Shown here in pieces: positions 38,453 to 63,949 of a stretch of 64,000 nt of DNA. The notes beneath the pieces are model-generated. The model searched no databases and was not told where the DNA came from. It saw only the letters and a program-made list of their open reading frames with translations. A program made the position numbers and the translations under genes. Numbering within the stretch: the stretch's first letter is position 1; every line of letters begins with the position of its first letter. The DNA lies in NCBI GenBank assembly GCA_026874595.1, contig CM049313.1:77182659-77246658 (forward strand). Direction: 5' to 3'. This stretch comes from Sipunculus nudus. Taxonomy: Eukaryota; Annelida; Sipuncula; Golfingiida; Sipunculidae.

Positions 38453-40110
38453 AACTAGACGACCATAGGTCGAACGCTTGCCGGAAATCGGAAGTGAAAC
38501 ACAGACGGACAGACAGAACATATTGTCGGTTTTCTATTAATGGAAAGACTCTCAGGGACATTGCTGAGAATATGTGGCCCGTAGAATGACATATGAGACA
38601 AAAGAACAGGCAAGCAAACAAAGCTGGCAACAAAAGACGAACAGACAGGCATACTGACTTTGTGAGACAAGATTGACACCAGATGACATAACCTAGTTAT
38701 TGAGAAGATTCAAAGTAAGAAAATGAGTTATAATGTATATAATTAAGATTTATAGTTTTGGAGGTATGGCGAATTAATGATATACTTGGGAGGCTCGACT
38801 GTAGCGCCCTCTAGCGGACAAATTCCGAAGACGACAAATGCGTTTCGTATTATTAATGTATGACATGAGATGTCCCAGTTTCAAAAGGATTCCGTCAAAG
38901 CTGTGGCCTGTAGAATGCTATATGTAAGGCGTAGGAACCAGAAAGCAGGCGACTTTGAGGATAACGGACAAACAGATGGACACACTGATAAAGTGACAGA
39001 AGAATGAAACCAGATGCCTTAATCAGGTTATGGAGAAGACTCAAAGGAAGAAAATAAGCTATAGTTTATGTAACTGAGGCTTTGGGTGTAGAGATATGGC
39101 CAATACAATGGTATGTGTGGGAGGGTCGTGTGCAGCGCCCACTAGTGGCCATATCCGGAAAATGATAAATTTATTTCTAGATATTAGTGTAAGACATAAG
39201 ATGTAATAGTTTCAAAAGGATTCCGTCAAAACCGTGGCCTATAGAATGCTATATGTGAGACGCAAGAGCCAACAAGCAGGCGAATTTGAGGACAACTGAC
39301 AAACAGACGAAAACACTGACAAAGTGACTCAAGATTGAGTCCAGATGACTACTCCAGGTTATGGAGAAGACTCAAAGGAAGAAATAAGCTACAGTTTATG
39401 TAACTGAGGTTTATAGTTTTGGAGATATTGCCAAAGCATGACATGTTGGGGAGGTTTGCATACAGCGCCACCTAGCGGCCGCATTCAAAAAATGGAAAAA
39501 CAATTTCGAGATAATAGTGTAGGACTTACGATATGTCAGTTTCCAAAAGATTCCTGCAAAACTGTGACCTCCAGGGCAAGATTACTGAAATCTCGAAATA
39601 TCTCGTTTGACGAGATATTATAGGAGATATCGCGAAACTTTTAATTAAATCTTGCAGTACTTGTTAAATGCTACCTGATGCAAAAAAACTAGACCTCTCT
39701 AGCTTTAAAACTGACAAAGTTAGAAAAATAAGACCCCTTATTTCAGAATATCATGACTTTTTCCCCCAATGCGTAACCATGGTTACGGCAAATTTGAAAG
39801 AGCTACACACCAGAAGAAAGGCCTGGGAATGACGTTTAAAATGAGCTATGTTTGAAGAAGATACCACTAATAGTAACAAAGATATGAAGAAAACCCGTTT
39901 TGTATACTTTTGATGACCTTGACCTTGACCTTTGACCTATATTGCCAAAAAACAATAGGCTCCTTGCATTTTTGATTATCTATAAAGTGTGTAAGTTTGA
40001 AAGTGATTGGTGCAAAATTGAGACCTGTAGAGAGATGACAGACAAACAGACAGACATCCGCGACTGACCAACCAGCTTGCGAAAATCGAAGATTTCCGGC
40101 AAGCAACAAG
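38453..40110 (+). repeat. Higher-order satellite unit, first copy
   Basis: Starts CTAGACGACCATAGGTCGAA and contains three roughly 330-bp subunits (CTCF-like motifs at 38802, 39133, 39463). A distal block follows with TCTCG...CGAGATAT hairpins, CTAGACCTCTCTAG, GTAACCATGGTTAC (39773), the TGACCT half-site run (39914-39938) and GACAGACAAACAGACAGACA. It ends in a hairpin (CTTGCGAAAATC/GATTTCCGGCAAG, about 40077-40106). Same architecture as the units from 54.2 kb on. No coding capacity. Confidence 0.8.
39914..39938 (-). promoter_or_regulatory. Nuclear-receptor-like half-site run (intact example)
   Basis: Four TGACCT half-sites in a row on the plus strand, the last two separated by one T (AGGTCAAAGGTCA on the minus strand, a DR1 form), the others preceded by TCA as in monomer-binding receptors. 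Other intact runs are at 43178-43202 and 58288-58311, with diverged ones in every higher-order unit. Receptor binding is untested. Confidence 0.4.
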
Positions 40111-40960
40111 ACGACCAGAAGTCACTCGCTTGCCGGAAATACTTTGACCCAGATTGGTAGAATAACAAGAACATGTCATAACCAAGACAAAGACCATGAA
40201 AATAAGCCCCTAGCGGCCATTTTTCAAAAATGAAAAATTCTTTTCGAGATATTAGGTGAAGATGTATCAGATGTATCAGTTAAAATAGATTCCTGCGAAA
40301 CTGTGGCCTGTAGAATGTTTTATTTAAGACAAGGTCCAGCTAAGAGGCAAAATTTAGGAGAGCTGACAAAGAGACAGAAATACTGACAAAGTGACACATC
40401 TGAGACAAAAGTTGGCCTTACAAAAGTTGTGGGGAAGATCAAGCGGAAGATATTTAGCCTAAGATTGTAAAGATAGGATTAAAATTCAAAATTTTTTGAT
40501 GACCTTGACCTTGACCTGTGGCAGATATTGACAAAAAAAAGCATGCAGAACGTTTGGTCTTCCATGATCTCTGTAAGTTTTAAAGCGGTTGCTGTTAAAT
40601 TGTGGCCTTTGTAGTGCTATATGTAAGACAAAAAAACCAGCAAGAAGGCGAAAATGAGGACAGCTGACAAAGAGACAGAAATACTGACTAAGTGACACAT
40701 CTGAGACAAAAGATGGCTTACAAAAGTTGTGGGGAAGACCAAGAAGAAGAAAATGAGCCTAAGATTGTGAAGATAAGACCAAATTTGATAAAGTTATGAA
40801 GAAAATAAATTTCAAGGTTTTTGGCCGACCTTGACCTTTAACTCTGACCTATATTGACCAAAAAGAATAGGCTTCCAGGATTTGGAAATTTCTACCAGCT
40901 CTGTAAGTTTCAGGGCGATTGCTGCAAAATTGTGCCCAGGAGAGTACTGATAAACAAACT
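40111..40960 (+). repeat. Diverged satellite units
   Basis: Two degenerate subunits containing GATGACCTTGACC (40497 and about 40828), TGTGGCCT.TAGAATG and GACAAAGAGACAGAAATACT repeated at about 40363 and 40665. A shortened CCCCTAGCGGCC lies at 40207. Confidence 0.65.
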
Positions 40961-41540
40961 AGACCTGTCTAGCTGTAAAACTCGCCGAGTTATCAGCATT
41001 TCCCTGAAATCTCGTGTTTTCTCGTATGACCTGATACGGTGCGAGATTGTGCCTGACTTGCAGTTTTGTCCTGTCAAGCTGGTCATGTGGAACGAAATGC
41101 CGAAAACTAGACCTGTCTAGCTGCAGTTTCGTGAAATGTCGTGTTATCTCGTTTGACGAGATACGGTGTGAGATTTTGCCAGGCTTGCATATCTGTCGTG
41201 TCAAGGTGGTCTAGTGGAACCAAATGCCGAAAACCAGACGTGTCTAGCTGTAAAACTGGCCGAGTTATAAGCATTTCTGTGAAATGTCGTGTTTTCTCGT
41301 TTGACGAGATACGGTGCGAGATTTGGCCTGTCTTGCAGTTCTGTCGTGTCAAGCTTGTTTGGTGGAACGAAATGCCGAAAACTAGACCTGTCTAGCTGTA
41401 AAAGTCGCCGAGTTATAAGCATTTCCGCGAAATCTCGTTTTTTCTCGTTTGACGAGATACGGCGCGAGATTTGGTGTGACTTGCAGTTTTGTCGTGTCAA
41501 GTGCGTCATGTGGAACAAAATGCCGAAAACTAGATCTGCC
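40961..41540 (+). repeat. 148-bp satellite array, copy at 41 kb (about 4 monomers)
   Basis: Monomers start CTAGACCTGTCTAGCTGTAA and recur every 148 bp (about 40970, 41107, 41240, 41388), the second being shorter. Each has a CTAGAC/GTCTAG hairpin, a CTCG-TTTGA-CGAG hairpin and AACTCGCCGAGTT. Open frames on both strands repeat with the period and are not genes. Confidence 0.85.
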
Positions 41541-43320
41541 TAGTTTAAAAACTGACAAAGTTACAAAAAATGGTCGTGTTATTTCCAATTTCCATGAATT
41601 TTGGCCAACAAAATGTAACCATGGTAACGGCAAATTTAAGTAAGCTACATGTCAAAAGAAAGGCCAGGTAATGACGAAAAAAATGAGCTATCATTGACGT
41701 AGATGCGACTATTAATGGCCAAGTAATCGAGCAAAAACTGTTAACCAGACTTTTCGTGACCTTGACCTTGACCTTGAAGGAATGTTGACCAAAAACAATA
41801 GGGCACCTAGAAATCGGTTTGTCAATCACGCCTGTAAGTTTCAAGTTGATTGAGGCAAAAGTGTGGCCTGGAGAGTCGTGACAAACAGACAAAGAGATAA
41901 ACAGACTAGATGACCTGAGGTCATGCGCTTGCCGGAAATGATGTAAAGTTAGTCAGATGAACGAGCAGTATAAAAGTGAAAGAAAATAATCCATAGTTTG
42001 TGAAGAAAGAACCAATATTAACAAAGTTCTAAAGAAAATAAGATTTTGATATATTTTGATCACCTTGTCCTTGACCTTTGACTTATTTGAATAATAAACA
42101 TAGGACTTCCAGATATCATCATGATATATGACAAGTGTAATTTACAAAACGATCCCCCTCAAAACTGTCAAGTAGAATGCTACATGTGAGACGCAAGCAC
42201 CTGGAAGCAGGCGAAATTGAGGACAACTGACAAACAGACAAACATACTGACAAACTGACCCAAGATTGAGACCAGTTGACTTAATCATGTGATGGAGAAA
42301 CCTCAGAGGAAGATAATAAGCTATAGTTTATGTAAATGAGGTTTATACTTTTGGAGATATGGCCAAAAAATGATATGTTGTGGAAGTTTGAGTGGACCGC
42401 CCCCTAGCGGCCAATTCTGGAAAAGGAAAAATCCGTTTCGAGATATTAGTGTAAGACATAAGATGTAATAGTTTTAAAAGGATTCTTTCAAAACTGTGAG
42501 CTGTAGAATGCTATATGTGAGACGCCATAACCGGTAAGCAGGCGAGTTTGATGAAAACTGAGAAACAGACGGACACACTGACAAAGTGACTCAAGATTGA
42601 GTCAAAATGACTCCACCAGGATTTAGAAAAGACTCAGAGGAAGAAAATAAGCTATAGTTTATGTAATTGAGGCTCACAGTTTTGGAGATATCGCCAAAAC
42701 AGGATATGTTGGGGAGGTTTGCATACAGCGCCACCTAGCGGCTGCATTCAAAAAATGGAAAACCTGTTTCGAGATAATAGTGTAGGACTTACGCTATGTC
42801 AGTTTCAAAAAGATTCCTGCAAAACTGTGACCTCCAGGGCAAGATTACTGAAATCTCGAAATATCTCGTTTGACGAGATATTATACGAGATATCGCGAGA
42901 CCTGTAATACAATCTTGCAGTACTTGTTAAATGCTACCTGATGCAAAAAACTAGACCTCTCTAGCTGTAAAACTGCCAAAGTTAGAAAAATAAGGCCCCT
43001 TATTTTCGAATATCATGACTTTTTCCCAAAAATTCGTAACCATGGTTACGGCAAATTTGTGTCAGCTACACACCAGATGACTGGCCTTGGAATGACGTTT
43101 AAAATGAGCTATGTTTGAAGAAGATACGACTAATAGTGACAAAGATATGAAGAAAACACCGTTTTGAGAAGTTTTGATGACCTTGACCTTGACCTTTGAC
43201 CTATATTGACCAAAAACAATAGGCTTCTTGCATTTTTTGATTATCTATAAAGTGTGTAAGTTTGAAAGTGATTGGTGCAAATTGAGACCTGTAGAGAGAT
43301 GACAGACAAACAGACAAACA
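41541..43320 (+). repeat. Mixed satellite units with three CTCF-like motif sites
   Basis: The distal block (GTAACCATGGTAAC at 41615, TGACCTTGACCTTGACCTTG at about 41757) leads to ATGACCTGAGGTCAT (41910-41924) and GCGCTTGCCGG. Subunits follow with motifs at 42395 and 42726, then another distal block with GTAACCATGGTTAC (43036) and the half-site run (43178-43202). Confidence 0.75.
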
Positions 43321-43500
43321 GACAGACATCCGCGACTGACCAACCAGCTTGCGAAAATCGAAGATTTCCGGCAAGCAACAAACAGACATACGGAACTGAC
43401 GAACATGCTTGCCGAAATCGAAGATTTCCGGCAAGCAACAAATTGACATACGCGACTGAGCAATATGCTTGCCGAAATCGAAGATTTCCGGCAAGCAATG
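43321..43500 (+). repeat. Three perfectly phased 60-bp hairpin repeats
   Basis: The 60-bp unit occurs three times without indels. Each holds an inverted pair GCTTGCCGAAATC / GATTTCCGGCAAGC around GAA, with one bulged C, followed by AACAA and GACATACG.GACTGA. The last copy runs into TGACCGGAGGTCA and GCTTGCCGG. Confidence 0.9.
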
Positions 43501-44470
43501 ACCGGAGGTCACGTGCTTGCCGGAAATGCAAATAAACGGACAGGGAGAGAGCAAAAGTGAAATCGTTTGAGGAGATGTGGTGCAAGGTTTCAAGACCTAG
43601 GTGTCCAGCTGGAAAACTCACCAAGTTATAAGGATTTCCGTTAAATGTCGTATTTTGTTGTGTTATGAGATATGTTGCTAGATTTCATGTGACTTGCACT
43701 TCAGTGATGTCACATTGGTCGTTTTCAACGAGTTGTCTAGCTTGAAAATTCCCCGAGTTATATTAAGTATTTGTGCGGAATCAGCGATTTGCTGGTTTTC
43801 GAGATATAGTGTTAGATTTTGTGTGACTTGCAGTTCTGTCATACCAAGCTGGTCATTTGGAATGAAATGGCGAAAACTAGACTTGTCTAGCTTTAAATCT
43901 CTGAGAGTGATATGGATTTCAATGAAATGTCGTGTTTTCTCGTTTGATGAGATACGATAGGAGATTTTTCGTGATTTGCAGTTCTATCATGTGAAGCTGA
44001 TTGTGTGGAATGTAATGCCGAAAGCTAGACCTGGCTAGCTGTAAAGATTGCTAAGTTATGCATTTCCGTGAAATCTCGTAAAACGAGATATGGTGTGAGA
44101 TTATGCGTGAGTTGCAGTTCTGTTATGTGAAGGAGGTCATGTGGAACGAAGTGCCATAAACTAGACTTGTCTAGGTGTAAAAGTTGAGACTCGGTGAGTT
44201 TTAAGCGTTTCCATGAAATGTCTTGTTTTGTCGTTTGATGAGATATGGTGCGAGATATGAGATGACTTATGGTTGTGTCGTTTCAGGTTGGTTATTAAAA
44301 ATAGATATGTTTAGCTAGGAAGGTGAGCAAATATATAAACGTTCCATCGCAATGTGATGTTTTTCTTGTTTGAAGAGATACAGTATGTGATTTGTAATTA
44401 TATTATCTAGGAGATAGGGGTGTCAATGAGTGGTGTAGGTTTCAAGCTGATTTATGTGGTGAGAAGACTC
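43501..44470 (+). repeat. Diverged 148-bp monomers
   Basis: Decayed monomers with CTAG.C.TGTCTAG (43885, 44160), TTTCTCGTTTGATGAGATAC and GTTGCAGTTCTGT recur at about 43620-44300. The last, near 44480, ends in GACAGACAAACAGACAGACA. Confidence 0.75.
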
Positions 44471-45125
44471 GAGAGTGATAAATGAAGAGACAGACAAACA
44501 GACAGACAGAACTGACAATTATGCTTGTCAATATTAAGGATTTTGTGGAAGATACACAACGACTGCTAGAATTAAAACGATTTTTATTAAAAAATAAGAT
44601 GATTATACAGTTGTGTGATTGTAATGATAATGCAAGAGGTTTAATGTATGAATTTGCAAACTATGAAAAAGGTGAGAAGGAAGAGAATAAGATAGTGATT
44701 TACAATGAGAGACAATTATATGGAGAACTGTAGGAAAAAAAAAGAGAAATATTTTTGTTGTTTTATATAACTGATTTGAATAGTTGTCGTATAAACTAGG
44801 ACAGAACAATAAATAAGATGTAAACAGAATGCTGTCTCGTTCTATAATGAACAATTACAATATGATAGAACGAGGGACCTAAGGGTGAAAGTGGTGAGAT
44901 GAGTGGATATGAAAAATAAAAAATATAAAATATGAAATGTAGATAAATTGCATGAATAACAGATAATTAGGATATCGAAGATTTATATGATTGGAGATGT
45001 AAATAATGTTTTGATATGTAATCATGCATTTCCTCATCATGAAAGTTGAGGATAAAAAAAGTTTAATTAAGACCCAGATTATTACTATGGTTATTGGTTA
45101 ATTTTAAATAAGGTGTTACACATGA
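44471..45125 (+). other. AT-rich spacer
   Basis: An 83-codon open frame at 44482-44733 begins inside the GACA microsatellite (MKRQTNRQTELT) and resembles no known protein. Short inverted repeat TCTCGTTCTATAATG/ATATGATAGAACGAG lies at 44834-44871. Confidence 0.35.
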
Positions 45126-46350
45126 GATAAACTGTACATCTGTCTGAGCAGAGATGGTGGAGTAGGATTACATAAGAATAAAAATGTCTGCCCGAAGTTT
45201 TACTTGTACATCTGTCTGAGCAGAGATGGTGCAGTAGGATTACATAACAATAAAAATGTGTGCCCGAAGTTTTACATGTACATCTGAGCAGAGATGGTGC
45301 AGTAGGATAACATAACAATAAAAATGTCTGTCCGAAGTTTTACTTGTACATGTGTCTGAGCATAGATGGTGTAGTAGGATTACATAACAATAAAAATGTG
45401 TGCCCAAAGTTTTACTTGTACATCTGTCTGAGCAGAGATGCTGCAGTAGGATTACGTAACAATAAAAATGTCTGCCCGAAGTTTTAATTGTACATCTGTG
45501 TGAGCAGAGATGCTGGAGTAGGATTACATAACAATAAAAATGTTTGCCCAAAGTTTTACTTGTACATCTGTCTGAGCAGAGATGCTGCACTAGGATTACA
45601 TAACAATAAAAATGTCTGCCCGAAGTTTTAATTGTACATCTGTGTGAGCAGAGATGCTGGAGTAGGATTACATAACAATAAAAATGTGTGCCCAAAGTTT
45701 TACTTGTACATCTGTCTGAGCAGAGATGCTGCAGTAGGATTACGTAACAATAAAAATGTCTGCCCGAAGTTTTAATTGTACATCTGTGTGAGCAGAGATG
45801 CTGGAGTAGGATTACATAACAATAAAAATGTCTGTGCGAAGTTTTACTTGTACATCTGTCTCAGCAGATATGCTGCACTAGGATTACATAACAATAAAAA
45901 TGTCTGCCCGAAGTTTTAATTGTACATCTGTGTGAGCAGAGATGCTGGAGTAGGATTACATAACAATAAAAATGTTTGCCCAAATTTTTACTTGTACATC
46001 TGTCTCAGCAGAGATGTTGCAGTAGGATTAAATAGCAATGAAAACGTCTGCCCAAAGTTTTACTTCTATATCTGTCTGAGCAGAGATGCCGCACTAGGAT
46101 TACATAACAATAAAAATGTCTGCCCAAAGTTTTAGTTGTACATGTGTCTGAGCAGAGATGCCGCAGTAGGATTACATAACAATAAAAATGTCTGCCCGAA
46201 GTTTTAGTTGTACATCTGTCTGAGCAGAAATCTGCAGTAGGATTATATAACAAATAATGTCTGCCCGACATTTTACTTGTACATCTGTCTGAGCAGAGAT
46301 GCTGTAGTAGGATTACATAAGAATAAAAATGTGTACTCGAAGTTTTACTT
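45126..46350 (+). repeat. 72-bp minisatellite, about 17 copies
   Basis: The unit contains ACATCTGTCTGAGCAGAGAT, GCAGTAGGATTACATAACAA and TAAAAATGTCTGCCCGAAGT. Copies step by 72 bp (e.g. GCAGAGATGCTG at 45432 and 45504). Because 72 is divisible by three, long open frames appear on both strands (24-residue periods such as HFYCYVILLQHLCS on the minus strand). They are artefacts of the repeat. Two subtypes, CTGTCTGAG/GCAGTAGG and CTGTGTGAG/GGAGTAGG, alternate through the middle copies, suggesting a duplicated dimer. Confidence 0.92.
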
Positions 46351-46411
46351 GTCACTGTTCATTAGGGAAAACTGAGGTACATGATGGTACATGATGTGGT
46401 TTGTTTACTTG
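46351..46411. repeat. 60-bp duplication of the RPA-like ORF's 3' end
   Basis: CACTGTTCATTAGGGAAAAC plus TGAGGTACATGATG here repeats, with small changes, at 46413-46450, which contains the stop codon and last codons of the minus-strand exon. Confidence 0.7.
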
Positions 46412-47194
46412 TCATTGTTCATTAAGCAAAACTGAGGTACATGATGTGCTTTGTTTGTGTTTAGGGTCTGTGTTTTTAACACACACGTCTGACTTGTGTT
46501 GCAGGTTTGGCAGTGCTGTTGGTGCGGTAAATGGCAATGTTTGATTCTGTTCTGGCTGGGTTTGAGCAATGTGTATAATTTCATTGTCATGCAAAAGTTT
46601 GATTTTGTAATGTTCGATTTCAAGGAAATGTTCCTCAAGACTGTCTTTGTCTTGCTTGATGTGAGTTATTGCATTTTGATCCAAGTATTTATCCAATGTT
46701 TCATTCTGTAAGATGATACGGTGCAAAATTTTGTCTTTGAAGGACATGTCAAATGACAATGAAGCAGAATTTAGAAATCTGCTGTTTTTTCCCTTAATAC
46801 CAGAGGTGTCGCATGTGGTGAACTTCACATCAAGATTACATGATCTCCCACATGCTGGGCAGAGGTGCTTTAAATTCGCTTTAGCGGTGATCACTTCAAT
46901 ATTGTAGACACTCAGTTCAATCGGATTTAAAGTTTCTTGAAATGGCTCAGTCGGTGAGAATAGTGTTTCGGTAGTTGTAGTGAGAGTCTTATCATTTTTG
47001 TACATCCTTGTGTTAACATTTTTGATAATATATGTGTGTCTGGTTTCGATTTCGTTTACTTGATTTTGCCATACTGTTAGAATGATAGATGCAGTTGGAT
47101 CAGAGATGATACAATCTTGTTTCTCTTTTGGTTCACCATATATGATGGTTTTCTTTATGCCCATGGTTTCGGTAATGACTGCTTTGACTGAAAC
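46412..47194 (-). CDS. RPA-like OB-fold protein, terminal coding exon
   Basis: An open frame of about 260 codons on the minus strand. The first part reads GIKKTIIYGEPKEKQDCIIS, DPTASIILTVWQNQVNEIET and RHTYIIKNVNTRMYKNDKTL, matching the OB-fold pattern of replication protein A large-subunit-like proteins: a D-T-S-I-L-W strand, then Y-I-N-V-R-Y and a TT-rich end. A Cys-rich part follows (HLCPACGRSCNLDVKFTTCD), perhaps a degenerate zinc ribbon. The C-terminus is low in motifs. The frame opens just after TTTCTTTTTTGTTTCAG, an excellent splice acceptor, so an upstream exon is expected to the right; none was identified before about 48 kb. It could be a host or a transposon-carried gene. RPA-like proteins are known in some Helitrons. 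The ssDNA-binding role is inferred. Confidence 0.6.
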   Translation of the reverse strand, partial: VSVKAVITETMGIKKTIIYGEPKEKQDCIISDPTASIILTVWQNQVNEIETRHTYIIKNVNTRMYKNDKTLTTTTETLFSPTEPFQETLNPIELSVYNIEVITAKANLKHLCPACGRSCNLDVKFTTCDTSGIKGKNSRFLNSASLSFDMSFKDKILHRIILQNETLDKYLDQNAITHIKQDKDSLEEHFLEIEHYKIKLLHDNEIIHIAQTQPEQNQTLPFTAPTALPNLQHKSDVCVKNTDPKHKQSTSCTSVLLNEQ

Positions 47195-47211
47195 CTGAAA
47201 CAAAAAAGAAA
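47195..47211 (-). promoter_or_regulatory. Predicted splice acceptor of the RPA-like exon
   Basis: The minus strand reads TTTCTTTTTTGTTTCAG just before the reading frame: a pyrimidine tract and a CAG acceptor. It sets the start of the exon at 47194 in place of any ATG. Confidence 0.65.
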
Positions 47212-47550
47212 TATAAATGGCAACTATATCATTTCAGAGAAGGCAGTTGAATAAGCTGAGTGTTAGAATAGTGTGTTGTGATTAGTGATTGCAAATATAT
47301 GACAATATTTTAATGAATAACATGCATGATTATTTGTTATCAGAAAAGGATATACACATCACGACGGTAGGTAAATTGGAACAGACTGAGAAAAAGTGAC
47401 TATAGGTAATATTACTCTGTGAAGTGACATGTATGTTAATAATATGCTCTTGCATTTGCAACAAATTAAACTACATATTTCTTCGCTATTCAGGTGCAAT
47501 AGTATTGCAACCGAATTAACTCCCTGCCAGCTAGGAATAAGTCTCCATTT
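47212..47550. other. Probable intron sequence, nothing recognised
   Basis: AT-rich, no coding signal. It is expected to be the intron upstream of the RPA-like exon. Confidence 0.35.
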
Positions 47551-47720
47551 TAGGGGGAGGACGTAGCCTAGTGGTTTAGGTGTTGGACTTTGGAGCTGAA
47601 GATCCGTGGTTCGAAGGCTGCTGGAGCTTCAGTGGCATGGACAGTGTTATCTTGTTGCATCTCAGAGATTCGCTCTAATGTCTTAATGACAAGTTATGAA
47701 TTCTGGATTATTCTTTACCC
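47551..47720 (+). mobile_element. tRNA-derived SINE
   Basis: A pol III promoter pair is visible: A box TAGCCTAGTGG at 47565-47575 and B box GGTTCGAAGGC at 47608-47618, 43 bp apart as in tRNA genes. The start GGGGGAGGACGTAGCCTAGT and the text around ATCCGTGGTTCGAAGGC give a tRNA-like body. The sequence after the B box (TGCTGGAGCTTCAGTGGCAT) is the tRNA-unrelated part. No complete cloverleaf is formed, so it is a SINE and not a tRNA gene. The 3' end is uncertain. Confidence 0.7.
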
Positions 47721-47999
47721 TGTGCATAGAAAACATGAAATCGAGAAGTGTTAATATTTACATATCATTCTTATCGTATGGTTTCCTTCCTTATAATTCA
47801 ATAGACAGTGCCACTAACAGGCAATGGACGTTTCCTTAAAAAAAAATTCTCCATTTTAAACTCAGATGCCCAGATTAAACAGAAAATGAACTAGTATACT
47901 GGTAGTTGAAAGCGACTTTTGTGTATTTGCCGAAATCTGTGATACTGGTGAAATGATGGATGGATGAAGTGGTACAGGGAAATAGTGAGATGTATGGTG
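47721..47999. other. Non-coding spacer, nothing recognised
   Basis: Contains an A run at 47840. No repeat family could be assigned. Confidence 0.35.
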
Positions 48000-48492
48000 C
48001 CACCTCCCAACATAATCAAATATCTATCCAAGATATATTTACATGTCAGATTTCAAACCAGTAAGTCAATGCATTGCAGTGATATGCATGATATTATATT
48101 TTAATGAGATATGTGCATGGATGTGTGCAAAGAAAAAGAATAGGTACATGGCGCCACATGTCATATCAAAGAAAATTGTATCGAAGATGTATTTATGTGA
48201 TAAATTTAAATTTCTCTGATGAATTCTTGTCAAGATATCCCGCTCACAAGGTATGGATAGACGGAGCTGTGTGATCTTGAAAAGTTAGTCAAGGTGACCC
48301 ATCTTTGAATTTGATCGAGATTTTGTTTATATACATTTTTACCGAAAGAATAAAATTTCTGTGATGAATGTTTGTGAAAATATCCCACTGAGAAGCCATG
48401 GACGGACGGATGGATGGATGGACGGACGGACAGACGGATGGATGGATGGTGCTCATACCATAATACGTCCTGTCATAGACGGGCGTATAAAA
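48000..48492 (-). mobile_element. Element Z-type repeat, reversed copy
   Basis: The minus strand starts with a hairpin (complement of ATACGTCC...GGGCGTAT, about 48462-48487). A TCCGTCC/TCCATCC tract follows (48400-48450), then CTTGTGAGCGGGATATC-like and GGTCACCTTGAC-like blocks, in the order seen in element Z at 28.6 kb. The head differs from Z, so it is a relative and not a direct copy. Non-coding. Confidence 0.6.
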
Positions 48493-49055
48493 ACAGAAAG
48501 AAGGAAAACAAAAGGAATCACTTTAATTCCCATCATAGTCAGGCAGGAAAATATTCAACAAATTTTTTAATTAGATCAAATTTTTTTAATAGATCAACAT
48601 TTTTAATTTATATAATTTTACAATACATTAACAGTATATCATAAATATTTAAAAATTCATGTTGATTCAGAATTGTAAATTGCATCACGATTTGTATTTG
48701 ATCTGGTTAGCCAACATCAGATTATGTACTCAGAAGTTTTTATTTTTTCTTAAAAAAAATATATATTTTTTTTTTAATTTGCAAAATAATTAATATCTGA
48801 AAAAAAATTAATTCAGGATTTCAAAGATGTGTATAAATTAAATCGGAAACAGCTTTACAATTAGAGATTCATTTAAGAATAATAGTACGTAATGCAAGAT
48901 AGGTTATTATTTGGGGGGGGGGGGGGTGGAAGTGGGGTGATGGTTGGTCACATATAATTGTAGCAGTGAAATCCTAGTTTTGCATCTGACACTTATAAGC
49001 TGAGCAAGGCTGTAGTGAATAGACATGACTGATATGGAGGTTTTAAATTTAAATG
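48493..49055. other. Very AT-rich stretch with a poly-G run
   Basis: Runs of T and A (48740-48800), then 14 G residues interrupted only by TGG at 48913-48930. Nothing coding. Confidence 0.5.
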
Positions 49056-49057
49056 CA

Positions 49058-50292: not shown

Positions 50293-50299
50293 TTAGAAC

Positions 50300-51509: not shown

Positions 51510-51510
51510 A

Positions 51511-51561
<51 letters not shown>
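51510..51561. repeat. (TA)n microsatellite
   Basis: About 50 bp of uninterrupted AT dinucleotides. Confidence 0.95.
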
Positions 51562-51563
<2 letters not shown>

Positions 51564-52040: not shown

Positions 52041-53870
52041 CTGCGAGTTTTATCATGCCAAGGTGAGCAAATCTTACAAAATCACAGAAACAAACCTGTC
52101 TAGCTTCAGAAAGGTACCAAGTTGTAAGAATAGGGAAATGTCATTTTTCTCCAATATACTAGATATCATGTGTCGTTTGGCGAAGCTTACAGTTATATCA
52201 CGTCAAGTTAACCAAATGTCTAGCTTTAAAAGTCTACGAATTATAAACATTTCTCTGAAATCTCACTTCTTCTCGTCTGGCAAGATATCGTTGGACATTT
52301 CATGAGTAGTTTAACTGTACCCAGCTGTCCAAATGTGATGAAATGCTGAAAACTGGACATGTCTTACTTTAAAAGTGACGGAGGTATAACAATTTATGAA
52401 AATTAGACCGGTGTAGCTCCAAAGTCCCCGAGTAATAAACGTTTATGTCAAATTCCGTTGTGTAAAGTTTGACGAGATATAGTGTCACATATGGCAAGAC
52501 TTTAAGTTTTATCTTGTCGAGCTGGCTACATATTAGAAATGCTAGACACTAGACATCTGTAGATGTAAAGGTCTGGGAGTTTAAAGCATTCCCCTGAAAT
52601 ATTTATTTTTGCGTTTTGACCAGATTTGACCAATTTGGCAACCTGGTGATGATGCGAAATGACGAAGACAAGACCAATGTAGGTGTTAAAGTCGAGGAGT
52701 TATAAGCATTTCCGTGAAATCTCTTCTTTACTCGCTTTGACAAGATATGATGCAAGATTTGGTTTGATTTTGAGTTTTCGCATGACAAGCTTGCCATCTG
52801 AAAAGAAATGCCGAAAACTAGACCTGTCTAGCTGTAAAAGTCGCCGAGTTATAAGCATTTAAGTGAAATCTCGTTGTTATCGTTGGACGAGATATGGGAA
52901 GATTTGGCCAGACTTATGGCGTAATCTTGTCAGGCTGGACACATGTGACAAAATGCCGAAAACTAGACCTACGTAGCTGTATAACTCGTCGAGTTATAAT
53001 TAAGCATTTCAGTGACATGTAGGTTGTTCTCGTTGAACGAGATATGGTGCGAAATTTGGCCAGACTTATGACTTTATCTTGTCAAGCTGGTCATATGTGA
53101 CAAAATGCCGAAAACTAGAACTACTTAGTTGTAAAAGGCGCCGAGTTATAAGCATTTCAGTGACATCTCGTGTTTTCTCGTTTGACGGGATACGGTGCGA
53201 GATTTTGCCTGACATGCATGACTGTCGTGTCAAGCTGGTCTAGTGGAACAAAATGCCGAAAACCAGACGTGTCTATCTGTAAAACTCGCCGAGTTATAAC
53301 CAATGCCGCGAAATCTCATGTTTTCTCGTTTGACGAGATACGGTGCGACATTCGGCCTGACTTTTAGTTCTGTCATGTCCAGAAACAAAATGCCGAAAAC
53401 TAGACCTGTCTAGCTGTAAAACTCGCCGAGTTATAAGCATTTCCGTGAAATCTCGTGTTTTCTCGTTTGACGAGATACGGTGCAAGATTTGGCCTGACTT
53501 GCAGATCTAACGTGTCAAGCTGGTCATGTGGAAGGAAATGCCGGAAACCAGACGTGTCTAGCTGTAAAACTGGCCGTGTTATAAGCATTTCCCTGAAATT
53601 TCGTGTTTTCTCGTTTGACGAGATACGGTGCGAGATTTGGCCTGTCTTGCAGCTCTGTCGTGTCAAGCTTGTTTGGTGGAACGAAATGCCGAAAACCAGA
53701 CCTGTCTAGCTGTAAAAGTCGCCGAGTTATAAGCATTTCCGCGAAGTCTCGTATTTTTTCGTTTGACGAGATATGGCGCGAGATTTGGCGTGACTTGCAG
53801 TTCTGTCGTGTCAAGCAGGTCATGTGGAACAAAATGCCGAAAACTAGATCTGCCTAGCTTAAAAACTGAC
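52041..53870 (+). repeat. 148-bp satellite array, copy at 53 kb
   Basis: Decayed monomers from about 52040 become regular towards the right; those starting at 53250, 53398, 53547 and 53697 are spaced at 148-150 bp and closely match the array at 40961-41540. The gradient from diverged to homogeneous suggests younger amplification on the right side. The hairpins CTAGACCTGTCTAG, CTCGTTTGACGAG and AACTCGCCGAGTT are kept in the regular monomers. Confidence 0.88.
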
Positions 53871-54211
53871 AAAGTTTCAAAAAATGGTCGTGTTATTTCC
53901 AATTTCCATGATTTTTGCCCAAAAAATGTAACCATGGTAACGGCAAATTTAAGTAAGCTACATGTCAAAAGAAAGGCCAGGTGATGACGACAAAAATGAG
54001 CTATTGCAGAAGTGGATAAGCCTATTTATGGCGAAGTTATAGTGCAAAAACCGTTAACCATACCTGTCGTGACCTTGACCCTTGACCTTGGAGCAATGTT
54101 GACCAAAAACAATAGGGCACCTAGAAATCGGTTTGTCAATCAAGCCTGTAAGTTTCAAGTTCATTGATGCAAAAGTGTGGCCTGGAGAGTCGTGACAAAC
54201 AAACAAACAAA
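53871..54211 (+). repeat. Distal satellite block before the main array
   Basis: CTAGATCTGCCTAG, GTAACCATGGTAAC (53928-53941), GTGACCTTGACCCTTGACC (54069) and GACAAACAAACAAACAAACTAG, a close relative of the block at 41541-41890. Confidence 0.8.
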
Positions 54212-55808
54212 CTAGACGACCATAGGTCGAACGCTTGCCGGAAATCGGAAGTGAAACACAGACGGACAGACAGAACATATTGTCGGTTTTCTATTAATGG
54301 AATGACTCTCAGGGACATTGCTGAGAATATGTGGCCCGTAGAATGTCATATGCGACAAAAGAACAGGCAAGCAGACAAAGCTGACAACAAAAGACGAACA
54401 GACAGAAATACTGGCTTTTTTAGACAAGATTGACACCAGATGACTTTACCTAGTTATGGAGAAGATTCAAAGGAAGAAAATGAGTTATTATAATTTATGT
54501 AATTTAGATTTATAGTTTTGGAGGTATGGCGAATTAATGATATACTTGGGAGGTTCGACTGTAGCGCCCTCTAGCGGACATATTCCGAAGGCGACAAATG
54601 CGTTTCGTATTATTAGTGTATGACATGAGATGTCCCAGTTTTAAAAGGATTCCGTCAAAGTTGTGGCCTGTAGAATGCTATATGTAAGGCGTAAGAACCA
54701 GCAAGCAGGCTAATGAGGATAACGTACAAACAGATGGACACACTGACAAAGTGACAGAAGATTGAAACCAGATGCCTTAATCAGGTTATGAAGAAGACCT
54801 AAAGGAAGAAAATAAGCTATAGCTTATGTAACTGAGGCTTTGGGTGTAGAGACATGGCCAATACAATGGTATATGTGTGAGGGTCGTGTGCAGCGCCCAC
54901 TAGTGGCCATATCAGAAAAATGTAAAATTTATTTTTAGAAATTAGTGTAAGACATAAGATGTAATAGTTTCAAAAGGATTCCGTCAAAACTGTGGCCTAT
55001 AGAATGCTTTATGTGAGACGCAAGAGCCAACAAGCAGGCGAATTTGAGGACAACTGACAAACAGACAGACACACTGACAAAGTGACACAAGATTGAGTCC
55101 AGATGACTACTCCAGGTTATGGAGAAGACTCAGAGGGAAAAAATAAGCTAAAGTTTATGTAATTGAGGCTTTGGGTTTTAGAGATATGGCCAATGTAATG
55201 ATATGTGTGTGAGGGTTTTGTGCAGCGCCCCCTAGCAGCCATATTCAAAAAATGAAAAAACAATTTCGAGATACTAGTGTAGGACTTATGATTTGACAGT
55301 TTCAAAAAGGTTCCTGCAATAATGTGGCCTTTGACGCAAGATGAATGAAATCTCGAAATATCTCTATTCACGAGATATTTTACGAGATACTGCAAGACTT
55401 ATAATAAAATCTTGTAGTACTAGTTGAATGCTACCTGATGCAAAAAACTAGACCACTCTAGCTTTAAAACTGACAAAGTTAGAAAAATAAGACCCCAGAT
55501 TTTCGAATATCATGACTTTTCCCCGAAAACTTGTAACCATGGTTACGGCAAATTTGAGTCAGCTACACACCAGATGACAGGCCTTGAAATGACGATTAAA
55601 ATGAGCTATTGTTGAAGTAAATACGACTAATAGTCACAAAGATATGAAGAAAAAACCGTTTTCAGAAGTTTTGACAACCTTGACCTTGACCTCTGACCTA
55701 TTTTGGCCAGAAACAAAAGGGCACCTAGAAATTATGTTTTTTATCATCCCTGTAAGTTTCAAGGTTATTGCTGCAAAATTGTGGTCAGGAGAGTGATGAC
55801 AAACAAAC
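54212..55808 (+). repeat. Higher-order satellite unit H1 (1597 bp, three subunits)
   Basis: Starts CTAGACGACCATAGGTCGAA. CTCF-like motifs at 54562, 54891 and 55223 (the last with one core mismatch), palindrome GTAACCATGGTTAC at 55533, half-site run at 55680. Confidence 0.88.
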
Positions 55809-58423
55809 TAGACGACCATAGGTCGAACGCTTGCCGGAAATCGGAAGTGAAACACAGACGGACAGACAGAACATATTGTCGGTTTTCTATTAATGGAATG
55901 ACTCTCAGAGACATTGCTGAGAATATGTGGCCCGTAGAATGACATATGAGACAAAAGAACAGGCAAGCAGACAAAGCTGACAACAAAAGACGAACAGACA
56001 GACATACTGACTTTGTGAGACAAGGTTGACACCAGATGACATAACCTGGTGATTGAGAAGATTCAAAGGAAGAAAATGAGTTATAATTTACGTAATTTAG
56101 ATTTATAGTTTTGGAGGTATGGCAAATTAATGATATACTTGGGAGGCTCGACTGTAGCGCCCTCTAGCAGACATATTCCGAAGACGACAAATGCGTTTCG
56201 TATTATAGTGTATGACATGAGATGTCCCAGTTTCAAAAGGATTCCGTCAAAGCTGTGGCCTGTAGAATGCTATATGAAAGGCGTACGAACCAGCAAGCAG
56301 GCGACTTTGAGGACAACTGACAAACAGACGAAAACACTGACAAAGTGATTCAAGATTGAGTCCAGATGACTACTCCAGGTTATAGAGAAGACCCAAAGGA
56401 AGAAAAAAGCTACAGTTTATGTTACTGAGGTTTATAGTTTTGGAGATATTGCCAAAGCATTATATGTTGGGAGAGGTTCGAGTTCAGCGCCCCCTAGCGG
56501 CAATATCCGGAAAATGAAAAATTGGTTTCGAGATATTAATGTAAGACTTAAGATGTTATAGTTTCAAAAGGATTCTTTCAAAACTGTGCCCTATAGAATG
56601 CTATAGGTTAGACGCAAGAGCAAGCAGGCGAATTTGAGGACAACTGACAAACAGACAGACACACTGACAAAGTGTCACAAAAGTGTGACCAGATGACTAC
56701 ACTAGGTTATGGAGAAGACCCAGAGGAAATAAATAAGCTATAGTTTATGTAATTGAGGCTTATAATTTTGGAGATATGGCCAAAATATGATATGATCGGG
56801 AGGTTCGCATCCAGCGCCCCCTAGCGGCCCTATTAAAAAAATGAAAAAACAATTTCGAGATACTAGTGTAGGACTTATAATATGTCAGTTTCAAAAAGAT
56901 TCCTGCAATAATGTGGCCTTTGGCGCAAGATGAATGAAATCTCGAAATATCTCTATTCACGAGATATTTTACGAGATACTGCAAGACTTGTAATAAAATC
57001 TTGTAGTACTAGTTGAATGCTACTTGATGCAAAAAAATAGATCACTCTAGCTTTAAAACTGACAAAGTTAGAAAAATAAGACCCCTTATTTTCGAATATC
57101 ATGACTTTTCTCCAAAATTTGTAACCATGGTTACGGCAAATTTGAGTCAGCTACACACCAGATGACAGGCCTTGGAATGACGATTAAAATGAGCTATCGT
57201 TGAAGTAGATACGACTAATAGTCACAAAGATATGAAGAAAAAAACCGTTTTGAGAAGTTTTGATGACCTTGACCTTGACCTTTGTCCTATTTTGACCAAA
57301 AACAATAGGGCACCTAGAAATTTAATTCTCGATCATATCTGAAAGTTTCAAGGTGATTGTGGCAAAATTGTGGCCAGGAGAGTGCAGACAAACAATCAGA
57401 CAAACAGACAAACAGACATACGCAACTGACCAATATGCTTGCCGAAATCTTTGATTCCGGCTAGCAACAAACAAAAAAGCATGATATGTTGGGAGAGGTT
57501 CGAATTCAGCGCCCCCTAGCGGCCATATCCGGAAAATGAAAAATTGGTTTCGAGATATTAGTGTAAGACTTAAGATGTAATAGTTTCAAAAGGATTCTTT
57601 CAAAACTGTGGCCTGTAGAATGCTATATGTGAGACGCAAGAGCAAGCAGGCGAATTTGAGGACAACTGACAAACAGACGGACACAATGACAAAGTGAAAC
57701 AACATTGAGACCAGATGACATCATCAGTTTATGGAGAAGACTCAAAGAGAAAAAATAAGCTATAGTTTATGTAATTGAGGCTTTGGGTTTTAGAGATATG
57801 GCCAATGTAATGATATCTGTGTGAGGGTCGTGTGCAGGGCCCCCTAGCAGCCATATTCGAAAAATGAAAAAACAATTTCGAGATACTAGTGTAGGACTTA
57901 TGATATGTCAGTTTCAAAAAGATTCCTGCAATAATGTGGCCTTTGGCGCAAGATGAATGAAATCTCGAAATATCTCTGTTCACGAGATATTTTACGAGAT
58001 ACTGCAAGACTTGTAATAAAATCTTGTAGTACTCGTTGAATGTTACCTGATGCAAAAAACTAGATCACTCTAGCTTTAAAACTGACAAAGTTAGAAAAAT
58101 AAGATCCCTTATTTTCGAATATCATGACTTTTCTGAAAAGAATTGTAACCATGGTTACAGCAAATTTGAGTCAGCTACACACCAGATTACAGGCCTTGGA
58201 ATGACGATTAAAATGAGCTATTGTTGAAGTAGATACGACTAATAGTCACAAAGATATGAAGAAAAAAACGTTTTCAGAAGTTTTGACGACCTTGACCTTG
58301 ACCTTTGACCTATTTTAACTAAAAACAATAGGGCACCGAGAAATTATGTTTTCCAACATCCCTGTAAGTTTCAAGGTTATTGTTGCAAAATTGTGGCCAG
58401 GAGAGTGGTGACAAACAAACAAA
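55809..58423 (+). repeat. Higher-order unit H2 with partial extra copy (2615 bp)
   Basis: Subunit motifs at 56155, 56485 and 56812, then a distal block (palindrome 57121, half-sites about 57264) and a 3' hairpin (GCTTGCCGAAATC/GATTCCGGCTAGC, 57438-57467). Two further subunits (57507, 57835) and a second distal block (58145, 58288-58311) follow without the hairpin head, as if the next copy had lost its first 650 bp. Confidence 0.85.
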
Positions 58424-60350
58424 CTAGACGACCATAGGTCGAACGCTTGCCGGAATTCGGAAGTGAAACACAGACGGACAGACAGAACATATTGTCGGTT
58501 TTCTATTAATGGAATGACTCTCAGGGACATTGCTGAGAATATGTGGCCCGTAGAATGACATATGAGACAAAAGAACAGGCAAGCAGACAAAGCTGACAAC
58601 AAAAGACGAACAGACAGACATACTGACTTTGTGAGACAAGATTGACACCAGATGACATAAGCTAGTTATTGAGAAGATTCAAAGGAAGAAAATGAGTTAT
58701 TATTTATGTAATTTAGATTTATAGTTTACGAGGTATGGCAAATTAATGATATACTTGGGAGGCTCTACTGTAGCGCCCTCTAGCAGACATATTCCGAAGA
58801 CGACAAATGCGTTTCGTATTATTAGTGTATGACATGAGATGTCTCAGTTTCAAAAGGATTCCGTCAAAGCTGTGGCCTGTAGAATGCTATATGTAAGGCG
58901 TAAGAACCAGCAAGCAGGCGACTTTGAGGATAACGGACAAACAGATGGACACACTGACAAAGTGACAGAAGATTGAAACCAGATGCCTTAATCAGGTTAT
59001 GGAGAAGACTCAAAGGAAGAAAATAAGCTATAGCTTATGTAACTGAGGCTTTGGGTGTAGAGATATGGCCAATATTGGTATGTGTGTGAGAGTCATGTGC
59101 AGCGCCCACTAGTGGCCATATCCGGAAAATGAAAAATTTATTTCTAGATATTAGTGTAAGACATAAGATGTAAAAGTTTCAAAAGGATTCCGTCAAAACT
59201 GTGGCCTACAGAATGCTATATGTGAGACGCAAGAGCCAACAAGCAGGCGAATTTGAGGACAACTGACAAACAGACGAAAACACTGACAAAGTGACTCAAA
59301 ATTGAGTCCAAATGACTTCTCCAGGTTATGGAGAAGACTCAAAGGAAGAAAAAAGCTACAGTTTATGTAACTGAGGTTTATAGTTTTGGAGATATTGCCA
59401 AAGCATGATATGTTGGGAGAGGTTCGAGTTCAGCGCCCCCTAGCGGCCATATCCGGAAAATGAAAAATTGGTTTCGAGATATTAGTGTAAGACTTAAGAT
59501 GTAATAGTTTCAAAAGGATTCTTTCAAAACTGTGGCCTGTAGAATGCTATATGTGAGACGCAAGAGCAAGCAGGCGAATTTGAGGACAACTGACAAACAG
59601 ACAGACACACTGACAAAGTGTCACAAAATTGTGACCAGATGACTACACTAGGTTATGGAGAAGACTCAGAGGAAGAAAATAAGCTATAGTTTATGTAATT
59701 GAGGCTTATAATTTTGGAGATATGGCCAAAATATGATATGATCGGGAGGTTCGCATCCAGCGCCCCCTAGCGGCCCTATTAAAAAAATGAAAAAACAATT
59801 TCGAGATACTAGTGTAGGACTTATAATATGTCAGTTTCAAAAAGATTCCTGCAATAATGTGGCCTTTGGCGCAAGATGAATGAAATCTCGAAATATCTCT
59901 ATTCACGAGATATTTTACGAGATACTGCAAGACTTGTAATAAAATCTTGTAGTACTAGTTGAATGCTACCTGAAGCAAAAAACTAGATCACTCTAGCTTT
60001 AAAACTGTCAAAGTTAGGAAAATAAGACCCCTTATTTTCGAATATTATGACTTTTCCCCCAAAACTTGTAACCATGGTTACGGCAAATTTGAGTCAGCTA
60101 CACACCAGATGACAGGCCTTGGAATGACGATTAAAATGAGCTATTGTTGAAGTAGATACGGCTAATAGTCACAAAGATATGAAGAAAAAACGGTTTTGGG
60201 AAGATTTGACGACCTTGACCCTGACCTTTCGCCTATTTTAACAAAAAAAAATAGGGCACCTAGAAATTAGGTTTTCCATCATCCCTGTAAGTTTCAAGGT
60301 TATTGTGGCAAAATTGTGGCCAGGAGAGTGGTGACAAACAAACAAACAAA
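58424..60350 (+). repeat. Higher-order unit H3 (1927 bp, four subunits)
   Basis: Motifs at 58771, 59100, 59431 and 59758, palindrome at 60068, half-site run near 60213. Longer than H1 by 330 bp, one subunit. Confidence 0.88.
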
Positions 60351-62356
60351 CTAGACGACCATAGGTCGAACGCTTGCCGGAATTCGGAAGTGAAACACAG
60401 ACGGACAGACAGAACATATTGTCGGTTTTCTATTAATGGAATGACTCTCAGGGACATTGCTGAGAATATGTGGCCCGTAGAATGACATATGAGACAAAAG
60501 AACAGGCAAGCAGACAAAGCTGGCAACAAAAGACGAACAGACAGGCATACTGACTTTGTGAGACAAGATTGACACCAGATGACATAACCTAGTTATTGAG
60601 AAGATTCAAAGGAAGAAAATGAGTTATAATGTATGTAATTAAGATTTATAGTTTTGGAGGTATGGCGAATTAATGATATACTTGGGAGGCTCGACTGTAG
60701 CGCCCTCTAGCGGACATATTCCGAAGACGACAAATGCGTTTCGTATTATTAATGTATGACATGAGATGTCCCAGTTTCAAAAGGATTCCGTCAAAGTTGT
60801 GGCCTGTAGAATGCTATATGTAAGGCGTAAGAACCAGAAAGCAGGCGACTTTGAGGATAACGGACAAACAGATGACACACTGATAAATTGACAGAAGATT
60901 GAAACCAGATGCCTTAATCAGGTTATGGAGAAGACTCAAAAGAAGAAAATAAGCTATAGTTTATGTAACTGAGGGTTTGGGTGTAGAGATATGGCCAATA
61001 CAATGGTATGTGTGGGAGGGTCGTGTGCAGCGCACACAAGTGGCCATATCAGGAAAATGATAAAATTATTTCTAGATATTAGTGTAAGACATAAGATGTA
61101 ATAGTTTCAAAAGGATTCCGTCAAAACTGTGGCCTATAGAATGCTATATGTGAGACGCAAGAGCCAACAAGCAGGCGAATTTGAGGACAACTGACAAATA
61201 GACGAAAACACTGACAAAGTGACTCAAGATTGAGTCCAGATGACTACTCCAGGTTATGGAGAAGACTCAAATGAAGAAACAAGCTACAGTTTATGTAACT
61301 GAGGTTTATAGTTTTGGAGATATTGCCAAAGCATGATATGTTGGGAGAGGTTCGAGTTCAACGCCCCCTAGCGGCCATATCCGGAAAATGAAAAATTGGT
61401 TTCGAGATATTAGTGTAAGACTTAAGATGTAATAGTTTCAAAGGGATTCTTTCAAAACTGTGGCCTGTAGAATGCTATATGTGAGACGCAAGAGCAAGCA
61501 GGCGAATTTGAGGACAACTGACAAACAGACAGACACACTGACAAAGTGTCACAAAATTGTGACCAGATGACTACACTAGGTTATGGAGAAGACTCAGAGG
61601 AAGAAAATAAGCTATAGTTTATGTAATTGAGGCTTATAATTGCGGAGATATGGCCAAAATATGATATGTTCGGGAGGTTCGCATCCAGCGCCCCCTAGCG
61701 GCCCTATTCAAAAAATGAGAAAACAATTTCGAGATACTAGTGTAGGACATATAATATGTCAGTTTCAAAAAGATTCCTGCAATAATGTGGCCTTTGGCAC
61801 AAGATGAATGAAATCTCCAAATATCTCTATTCACGAGATATTTTACGAGATACTGCAAGACTTGTAATACAATCTTGTAGTACTAGTTAAATGCTACCTG
61901 ATGCAAAAAACTAGATCACTCTAGCTTTAAAACTGACAAAGTTAGAAAAATAAGACCCCTTATTTTCGAATATCATGACTTTTCCCCCAAAATTTGTAAC
62001 CATGGTTACGCAAATTTGAGTCAGCTACACACCAGATGACAGGCCTTGGAATGACAATTAAAATGAGCTATTGTTGAAGTAGATACGACTACTAGTCACA
62101 AAGATATGAAGAAAAAACTGTTTTGAGAAGTTTTGACGACCTTGACCTTGACCTTAAACCTATTTTAACCAAAAACAATAGGGCACCTAGAAATTATGTT
62201 TTTCATCATCCCCGTAAGTTTCAAGGTTATTGTGGCAAAATTGTAGCCAGCAGAGTGATGACAAACAAACAGACAGACAGACAGACAAACAGACAAACAG
62301 ACATACGCAACTGACCAATATGCTTGCCGAAATCTTTGATTCCGGCAAGCAACAAA
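60351..62356 (+). repeat. Higher-order unit H4 (2006 bp, four subunits)
   Basis: Motifs at 60698, 61028 (decayed), 61359 and 61686, palindrome at 61996, half-site run about 62142. It ends with a 3' hairpin (GCTTGCCGAAATC/GATTCCGGCAAGC, 62321-62350) followed by AACAAACTAG. Confidence 0.88.
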
Positions 62357-63949
62357 CTAGACGACCATAGGTCGAACGCTTGCCGGAATTCGGAAGTGAA
62401 ACACAGACGGACGGACAGAACGTATTGTCGGTTTTCTATTAATGGAATGACTCTCAGAGACATTGCTGAGAATATGTGGCCCGTAGAATGACATATGAGA
62501 CAAAAGAACAGGCAAGCAGACAAAGCTGACAACAAAAGACGAACAGACAGACATACTGACTTTGTGAGACAAGATTGACACCAGATGACATAAGCTAGTT
62601 ATTAAGAAGATTCAAAGGAAGAAAATGAGTTATAATTTATGTAATTTAGATTTATAGTTTACGAGATATGGCGAATTAATGATATACTTGGGAGGCTCGA
62701 CTGTAGCGCCCTCTAGCAGACATATTCCGAAGACGACAAATGCGTTTCGTATTATTAATGTATGACATGAGATGTCTCAGTTTCAAAAGGATTCCGTCAA
62801 AGCTGTGGCCTGTAGAATGCTATATGTAAGGCGTAAGAACCAGCAAGCAGGCGACTTTGAGGATAACGGACAAACAGATGGACACACTGACAAAGTGACA
62901 GAAGATTGAGTCCAGATGACTTCTTCAGGTTATGGAGAAGACTCAAAGGAAGAAAAAAGCTACAGTTTATGTTACTGAGGTTTATAGTTTTGGAGATATT
63001 GCCAAAGCATGATATGTTGGGAGAGGTTCGAGTTCAGCGCCCCCTAGCGGCCATATCCGGAAAATGAAAAATTGGTTCCGAGATATTAGTGTACGACTTA
63101 AGATGTAATAGTTTCAAAAGAATTCTTTCAAAACTGTGGCCTGTAGAATGCTATATGTGAGACGCAAGAGCAAGCAGGCGAATTTGAGGACAACTGACAA
63201 ACAGACGGACACAATGACAAAGTGACACAACATTGAGATCAGATGACATTATCAGTTTATGGAAAAGACTCAGAGGGAATAAATAAGCTATAGTTTATGT
63301 AATTGAGGCTTATAATTTTTGAGATATGGCCAAAATATGATATGTTCGGGAGGTTCGCATCCAGCGCCCCCTAGCGGCCCTATTCAAAAAGTGAAAAAAC
63401 GATTTCGAGATACTAGTGTAGGACTTATAATATATCAGTTTCCAAAAGATTTCTGCAATAATGTGGCCTTTGGCTCAAGATGAATGAAATCTCGAACTAT
63501 CTCTATTCACGAGATATTTTACGAGATACTGCAAGACTTGTAATAAAATCTTGTAGTACTAGTTGAATGCTACCTGAAGCAAAAAACTAGATCACTCTAG
63601 CTTTAAAACTGACAAAGTTAGAAAAATAAGACCCCTTATTTTTGAATATTATGACTTTCCCCAAAAACTTTTAACCATGGTTACGGCAAATTTGAGTCAG
63701 CTACACACCAGATGACAGGCCTTGGAATGACGATTAAAATGAGCTATTGTTGAAGTAGATACGGCTAATAGTCACAAAAATATGAAGAAAAAACGGTTTT
63801 GGGAAGATTTGACGACCTTGACCTTGACCTTTCACCTATTTTAACCAAAAACAATAGGGCACCTAGAAATTATGTTTTTCATCATCCCTGTAAGTTTCAA
63901 GGTTATTGTGGCAAAATTGTGGCCAGGAGAGTGGTGACAAACAAACAAA
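62357..63949 (+). repeat. Higher-order unit H5 (1593 bp, three subunits)
   Basis: Motifs at 62704, 63035 and 63362, palindrome slightly changed at 63670, half-site run at 63814. Confidence 0.88.

Follow-up and report, generated by a model that had tools for sequence, protein, structure and literature searches.

The window analysed here is the whole stretch of 64 kb, in which a profile search found fragments and 24 full satellite units of about 330 bp. The full units form eight blocks, the first beginning at 38,590 and the last ending at 63,487, and every one has + orientation. The unit profile was built from 23 motif-bearing units and was thereby biased toward such units; the 24th (60816-61154) was not among the seeds. 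A single minus-strand CTCF-like 19-mer occupies a constant position within every full unit (24/24), which bears out the preliminary description of at least 24 sites, one per subunit and all on that strand. The window contains tandem units that each carry a same-facing CTCF-like site (24/24 units, one strand), the arrangement taken as characteristic of a DXZ4-like platform. The spacing of about 330 bp that had been given for the whole of 38.8-63.4 kb was found only inside the eight blocks, each of two to four units. Of the 23 site-to-site distances, 16 measured 327-332 bp; the remaining seven, from 695 to 11,836 bp, leave gaps of 0.7-11.8 kb in the region.

The 19-mers were scored with a JASPAR-type CTCF matrix, a vertebrate consensus with a maximum of 30.1 bits. 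Block 1 (38590..39588, three 330-bp units; like all the blocks, on the + strand and delimited by profile match) has minus-strand sites at 38802..38820 (22.0 bits), 39133..39151 (22.1 bits) and 39463..39481 (24.6 bits), and block 2 (42183..42851, two units) at 42395..42413 (24.6 bits) and 42726..42744 (22.6 bits). Between these two blocks, a partial unit at 40207..40326 (+) was recognised by profile match and by reading of the letters; its similarity to the family starts within the motif, which is truncated. Also on the minus strand are the sites of block 3 (54348..55348, three units), at 54562..54580 (22.0 bits), 54891..54909 (22.1 bits) and 55223..55241 (16.5 bits), those of block 4 (55943..56937, three units), at 56155..56173 (12.7 bits), 56485..56503 (24.0 bits) and 56812..56830 (23.9 bits), and those of block 5 (57302..57960, two units), at 57507..57525 (25.8 bits) and 57835..57853 (11.3 bits, with C at position 16). 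Block 6 (58559..59883, four units) follows with minus-strand sites at 58771..58789 (12.7 bits), 59100..59118 (22.1 bits), 59431..59449 (25.8 bits) and 59758..59776 (23.9 bits), block 7 (60486..61811, four units) with 60698..60716 (22.0 bits), 61028..61046 (9.2 bits), 61359..61377 (21.5 bits) and 61686..61704 (23.9 bits), and block 8 (62492..63487, three units) with 62704..62722 (12.7 bits), 63035..63053 (25.8 bits) and 63362..63380 (23.9 bits), again all on the minus strand.

By this vertebrate matrix the 24 sites span 9.2-25.8 bits, 19 of them scoring at least 16 bits and five 9.2-12.7 bits; the scoring of all subunits that had been proposed as a check thus gave a resemblance over the full 19 bp that reaches 25.8 of 30.1 bits. 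Places above 16 bits numbered 19 in the window vs a mean of 0.5 in shuffled windows (20 first-order Markov shuffles), and a given 331-bp unit would contain a site of at least 22 bits by chance with a probability of about 1.6e-5. The sequence CCNSYAGRKGGCRS is matched exactly by 14 of the 24 sites and with one or two mismatches by nine; one site (61028) has more. The differences between subunits had been said to fall at positions left open by the consensus, and this does not hold for all of them. In the CTCF matrix, T at position 11 is nearly forbidden and position 5 is nearly invariant. Units of type B have T at matrix position 11, and 26 of 123 aligned units have T at position 5, a C-to-T change that is common in unit type A and is present, by the letters, in the window sites beginning at 55223, 56155, 57835, 58771 and 62704.

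Other repeats and gene fragments are also found in the window. Subunits between and beside the CTCF blocks contain direct repeats of TGACCT, which we take to be nuclear-receptor half-site-like, for example at 39914, 43178, 55681, 57264, 58293, 62143 and 63819 (+). The sequence TGACCTTGACCTTTGACC has 25,621 exact occurrences in the genome vs 0 for its reversed form, often at a spacing of about 288 bp in the listed places on contig C1. Tandem repeats of about 127-148 bp with palindromic TCTCGTTTGACGAGA-like cores lie near CTCF blocks at 41005-41554 and 52657-53864, and are present also in L001, one of the genomic copies of the family. A tandem array of 17 copies of 72 bp occupies 45133-46352; two places on C3 hold a 91% relative of 45001-46000, and beside the array a frame of 263 aa (46412-47203, -) matches an Ssb-like OB-fold with E 2.1e-6. 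Retroelement gene fragments, with an RNase H-like domain and reverse transcriptase, were found at 16490-17140 and 33579-34328 (-).

A search of the genome (1,426,538,692 bases, 153 contigs) with a single unit returned 1,441 candidates, and the best 40, which were scored, were full-length and 99-100% identical, on at least 12 contigs and on both strands. The core CCNSTAGRKGGCGC occurs 7,943 times (4,155+3,788) vs 31 (11+20) for a reversed control, and the motif followed by the conserved family flank occurs 4,479 times exactly (2,017+2,462) vs 0 for the control. The dispersed motif-bearing copies for which a search had been suggested are therefore present, and in large number, as in a repeat-borne expansion of CTCF sites of the B2-SINE type. 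The first 100 core places on C1, all within its first 21.2 Mb, were taken as a sample. The exact 16-bp family box stands at unit spacing in 22 of them; of the other 78, 60 match a motif-masked profile, every one in the orientation of the unit, and the 18 without a match include L163, which at 47.1 bits lies just below the 50-bit cut-off. Reversed copies of the first 40 fetched core places gave no match to the same profile. Family members thus make up 82 of the 100 places, a proportion from one chromosome end which makes any share given for the whole genome an extrapolation, and repeats, not unique DNA, hold most of the strict CTCF-consensus matches in the sampled stretch of C1. When the 100 places were grouped by gaps of up to 5 kb, 40 clusters were obtained, 20 of them with at least two sites; 19 of these 20 lie on one strand and one flips once, and at least two of the 20 are non-family. 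Element ends were read in two (L001 and L004) of five 10-kb copies compared, and because these stop at different places no transposon class is claimed.

The same contig holds a second repeat with TGACCTCTAGGTGGCGCCA (23.4 bits), which gave no match to the family profile and whose copies are 98.9-100% identical, at C1:16034404-16036467 (L146, L147, L176) and C1:15858283-15858643 (L121). Seven CCNGCAGRTGGCGC sites lie on one strand at 336-680 bp spacing in C1:24041159-24043888, perhaps another CTCF-like tandem array.

The fingers of human CTCF were used to search the genome, and among the 126 scored of 1,737 candidates the best match was an open frame on C11 (67037578-67038510), with 56% identity over 2-309 of 314. 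The frame encodes eleven fingers, human CTCF is its best PDB match (E 6e-109, covering 2-310 of 311 aa), and on finger number and order we call it the predicted CTCF orthologue of the host. A search for the haemocyanin family PF14830 gave no match in this genome, nor in 14 controls, and thus says nothing about the taxon. With human and host residues paired by finger order and alignment, fingers 3, 4 and 5 are identical to those of human CTCF at the base-reading residues -1/2/3/6, finger 7 keeps the human residues -1 and 3, and finger 6 keeps -1 only. A caution in the preliminary description concerned the third core base (matrix position 6), which is G in 20 of the 24 window sites and A in four, so that the A preference of vertebrates is not seen. 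The observation was correct, and its weight as a caution is largely removed because sites of a type hardly used by the family lack an A preference as well. The variant CCNGYAGRKGGCGC, hardly used by the family, occurs at 1,915 genome places vs 27 for the control. In 100 listed places, which include at least one family member (C1:10451873, L116), its third base is T in 51, A in 26, G in 22 and C in one; without one frequent word, possibly a repeat, the counts become A 26, G 22, T 21 and C 1, and among thirteen distinct non-family 19-mers they are G 4, T 4, A 4 and C 1. The enrichment of this variant suggests that the genome uses a CTCF-like motif independently of the family. A preference of the host CTCF for G at the third base was considered and rejected, as these other sites have no such preference.

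The conservation of the motif was assessed in 100 units on C1 chosen via a separate box, AGTTTCAAAAGGATTC (3,401 genome copies vs 0 for the control), so that the motif itself did not select the units. At least 16 bits were reached by 62 of the 100, 26 scored 9-16 bits and 12 less than 9; taking the best 19-mer within a 90-bp span of each unit favours high scores slightly, and the aligned position alone also gave 62/100. When the units were ranked by distance from the overall consensus, a distance that includes unit-type differences, and divided into quarters, 22/25, 19/25, 9/25 and 12/25 units had at least 16 bits, the most distant quarter having a mean distance of 29%. The 100 units and the 24 of the window were then placed on a tree built with the motif and box columns excluded, and changes were counted by parsimony after omission of columns with less than 60% occupancy, of the first and last 15 columns and of the 16-bp selection box. 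The core showed 5.21 steps per column vs 7.77 for other columns, and with CpG columns kept, 22 of 245 other windows of 14 columns were as slow as the core. CpG columns changed more than non-CpG columns both outside the motif (13.2 vs 7.4 steps) and within the core (9.5 vs 3.5). The ten non-CpG core columns had 3.50 steps vs 8.93 for base-matched columns of the unit, a ratio of 0.39, and 0 of 20,000 draws, which ignore the neighbourhood of columns, were as low; the ratio was 0.25 for internal branches and 0.49 for terminal ones. When one unit was kept per locus (47 units) the ratio was 0.43, and the fraction of draws that fell as low was 0.0 for all changes together, 0.00005 for internal and 0.002 for terminal ones. 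Among 255 sliding non-CpG windows, six were as slow as the core in total changes, three in internal and nine in terminal changes, the slow windows including one around TTTCGAGATATTAG; the motif is thus one among a few conserved boxes and not the sole one. A comparison between unit types (57 units in 10 groups) gave the core rank 5 among 326 windows. Changes within the 19-mer numbered 109 vs 170 predicted from the flank spectrum, with a mean of -2.6 vs -3.9 bits. Three comparisons gave no significant result: the lower count of steps in core CpG columns than in other CpG columns (9.5 vs 13.2) was not significant (p 0.07), substitution rate did not correlate with the information content of the matrix (rho -0.15, p 0.54), and damaging changes were not significantly rarer on internal branches in three subsets (Fisher p 0.21, 0.50, 0.57). 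The proposal that the motif diverges more slowly than its flanks, and may be kept for its own sake, is thus partly supported: the non-CpG positions change at 0.39 of the matched rate, the CpG positions are not significantly slower, and the 22/245 windows as slow as the core do not agree with a uniquely conserved motif. Among inverted repeats, 31 pairs were found in 38-64 kb, those listed being mostly one AT tract; none of 25 listed overlaps a motif, and a palindrome or hairpin was rejected as the cause of conservation.

The units could be passive carriers of a real CTCF site acquired long ago, with arrays that are methylated or heterochromatic and unoccupied, and with a motif that only decays. 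The lack of a significant slowing at the motif's CpG positions relative to other CpGs would fit such a history, as would T at the nearly invariant position 5 in 26/123 units and the 38 of 100 sampled units below 16 bits. Simple decay, however, agrees poorly with the reduced rate of the non-CpG core, seen on terminal branches too, and with the 12 of 25 units in the most distant quarter that still score at least 16 bits, and we regard this explanation as possible and rather unlikely. It is improbable that the box works for the repeat itself, in its replication, its excision or its expression via another factor, and resembles a CTCF site only outwardly. Other boxes of the unit are equally conserved, namely the TTTCGAGATATTAG region and the AGTTTCAAAAGGATTC box with its 3,401 copies, and the subunits adjoining the CTCF blocks hold another factor-like box, TGACCTTGACCTTTGACC, which speaks for such a role; yet a 22-bit CTCF match in a unit would hardly arise by chance (about 1.6e-5), and the family-sparse variant CCNGYAGRKGGCGC is strongly enriched as well (1,915 vs 27). 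Least probable of all is an absence of constraint, the units having been copied recently from a small number of masters and made uniform by conversion: the best 40 of 1,441 candidates are indeed 99-100% identical, full-length and spread over 12 contigs, but youth or conversion would be expected to act equally on every column, and the base-matched contrast holds when each locus is represented once (47 units, ratio 0.43, 0/20,000 draws).

From the sequence match, the orientation, the dispersal, the host CTCF orthologue and the slower non-CpG motif positions observed for the family, we favour, with some reserve, the explanation that a dispersed satellite-like family of about 330 bp spreads genuine same-facing CTCF-consensus sites, with predicted binding by the host, constraint on the motif and one-sided stalling of cohesin. 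Intact, unmethylated units would be bound by host CTCF, and constraint on the motif would be clearest in the lineages that spread. Because every unit contributes a single site and its orientation in the unit does not vary, the sites of an array all face one way and, to judge from vertebrate work, may stall cohesin from one side. Under the convergent-motif rule, minus-strand CTCF sites would stop cohesin coming from lower coordinates, and the arrays of the window should therefore anchor contacts toward lower coordinates. Units with the C-to-T change at position 5 are probably weak or unbound, given that this T should reduce binding, and an array is therefore likely to contain both functional and inactive sites.

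Each part of this arrangement has a known counterpart. Rodent B2, dog SINEC-Cf and opossum MAR SINEs carry CTCF sites with ChIP-seq support in mammals (PMC3368268), and the satellite resembles them as a repeat family by which CTCF motifs are distributed widely within one lineage; unlike those of the dispersed SINEs, its predicted sites stand in tandem arrays of units of about 330 bp. With the DXZ4/Dxz4 macrosatellite (PMC5899087) the satellite shares a tandem structure and tandemly oriented CTCF motifs. In mouse Dxz4 the tandem CTCF motifs have a common polarity (PMC5899087, PMC6985041) and their orientation sets the direction of contacts, and in human DXZ4 there are two motif sets in opposite orientation (PMC5899087). 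DXZ4, however, is a single X-linked locus bound by CTCF (PMC5899087), whereas the satellite lies on at least 12 contigs, with predicted sites and, in the window, blocks of two to four units. The Cg_HINE Helentrons of the Pacific oyster likewise form short satellite-like arrays scattered genome-wide; the abstract makes no mention of CTCF (PMC7492417), and the satellite copies L001 and L004 end differently. Among spiralians, a CTCF-like motif is enriched at domain boundaries of squid (PMC9023564), and the loop anchors of three coleoids also contain motifs resembling that of CTCF (PMC12407938). According to a review of spiralian genomics, the mechanism of the domains of a squid could not be inferred because no motif directionality had been identified (PMC10658182), and an annelid study describes mostly single motifs without clear directional arrangement (PMC7854359). 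Repeat-borne CTCF sites, tandem CTCF motifs of the same polarity and dispersed satellites are thus each known; no report joining them in a CTCF-bearing dispersed satellite of an invertebrate was found among the matches listed in the open-access literature on CTCF with molluscs, bivalves, gastropods, satellites, transposable elements or invertebrate arrays.

In its strongest form the favoured explanation would have an invertebrate genome draw most of its CTCF sites from a mobile satellite, with thousands of one-way cohesin barriers, a motif under selection and chromosome folding that depends largely on a repeat, and this wider claim we consider doubtful. The family offers many natural same-facing arrays, in which diverged and motif-damaged copies are built-in controls for testing the directionality rule of CTCF sites outside vertebrates.
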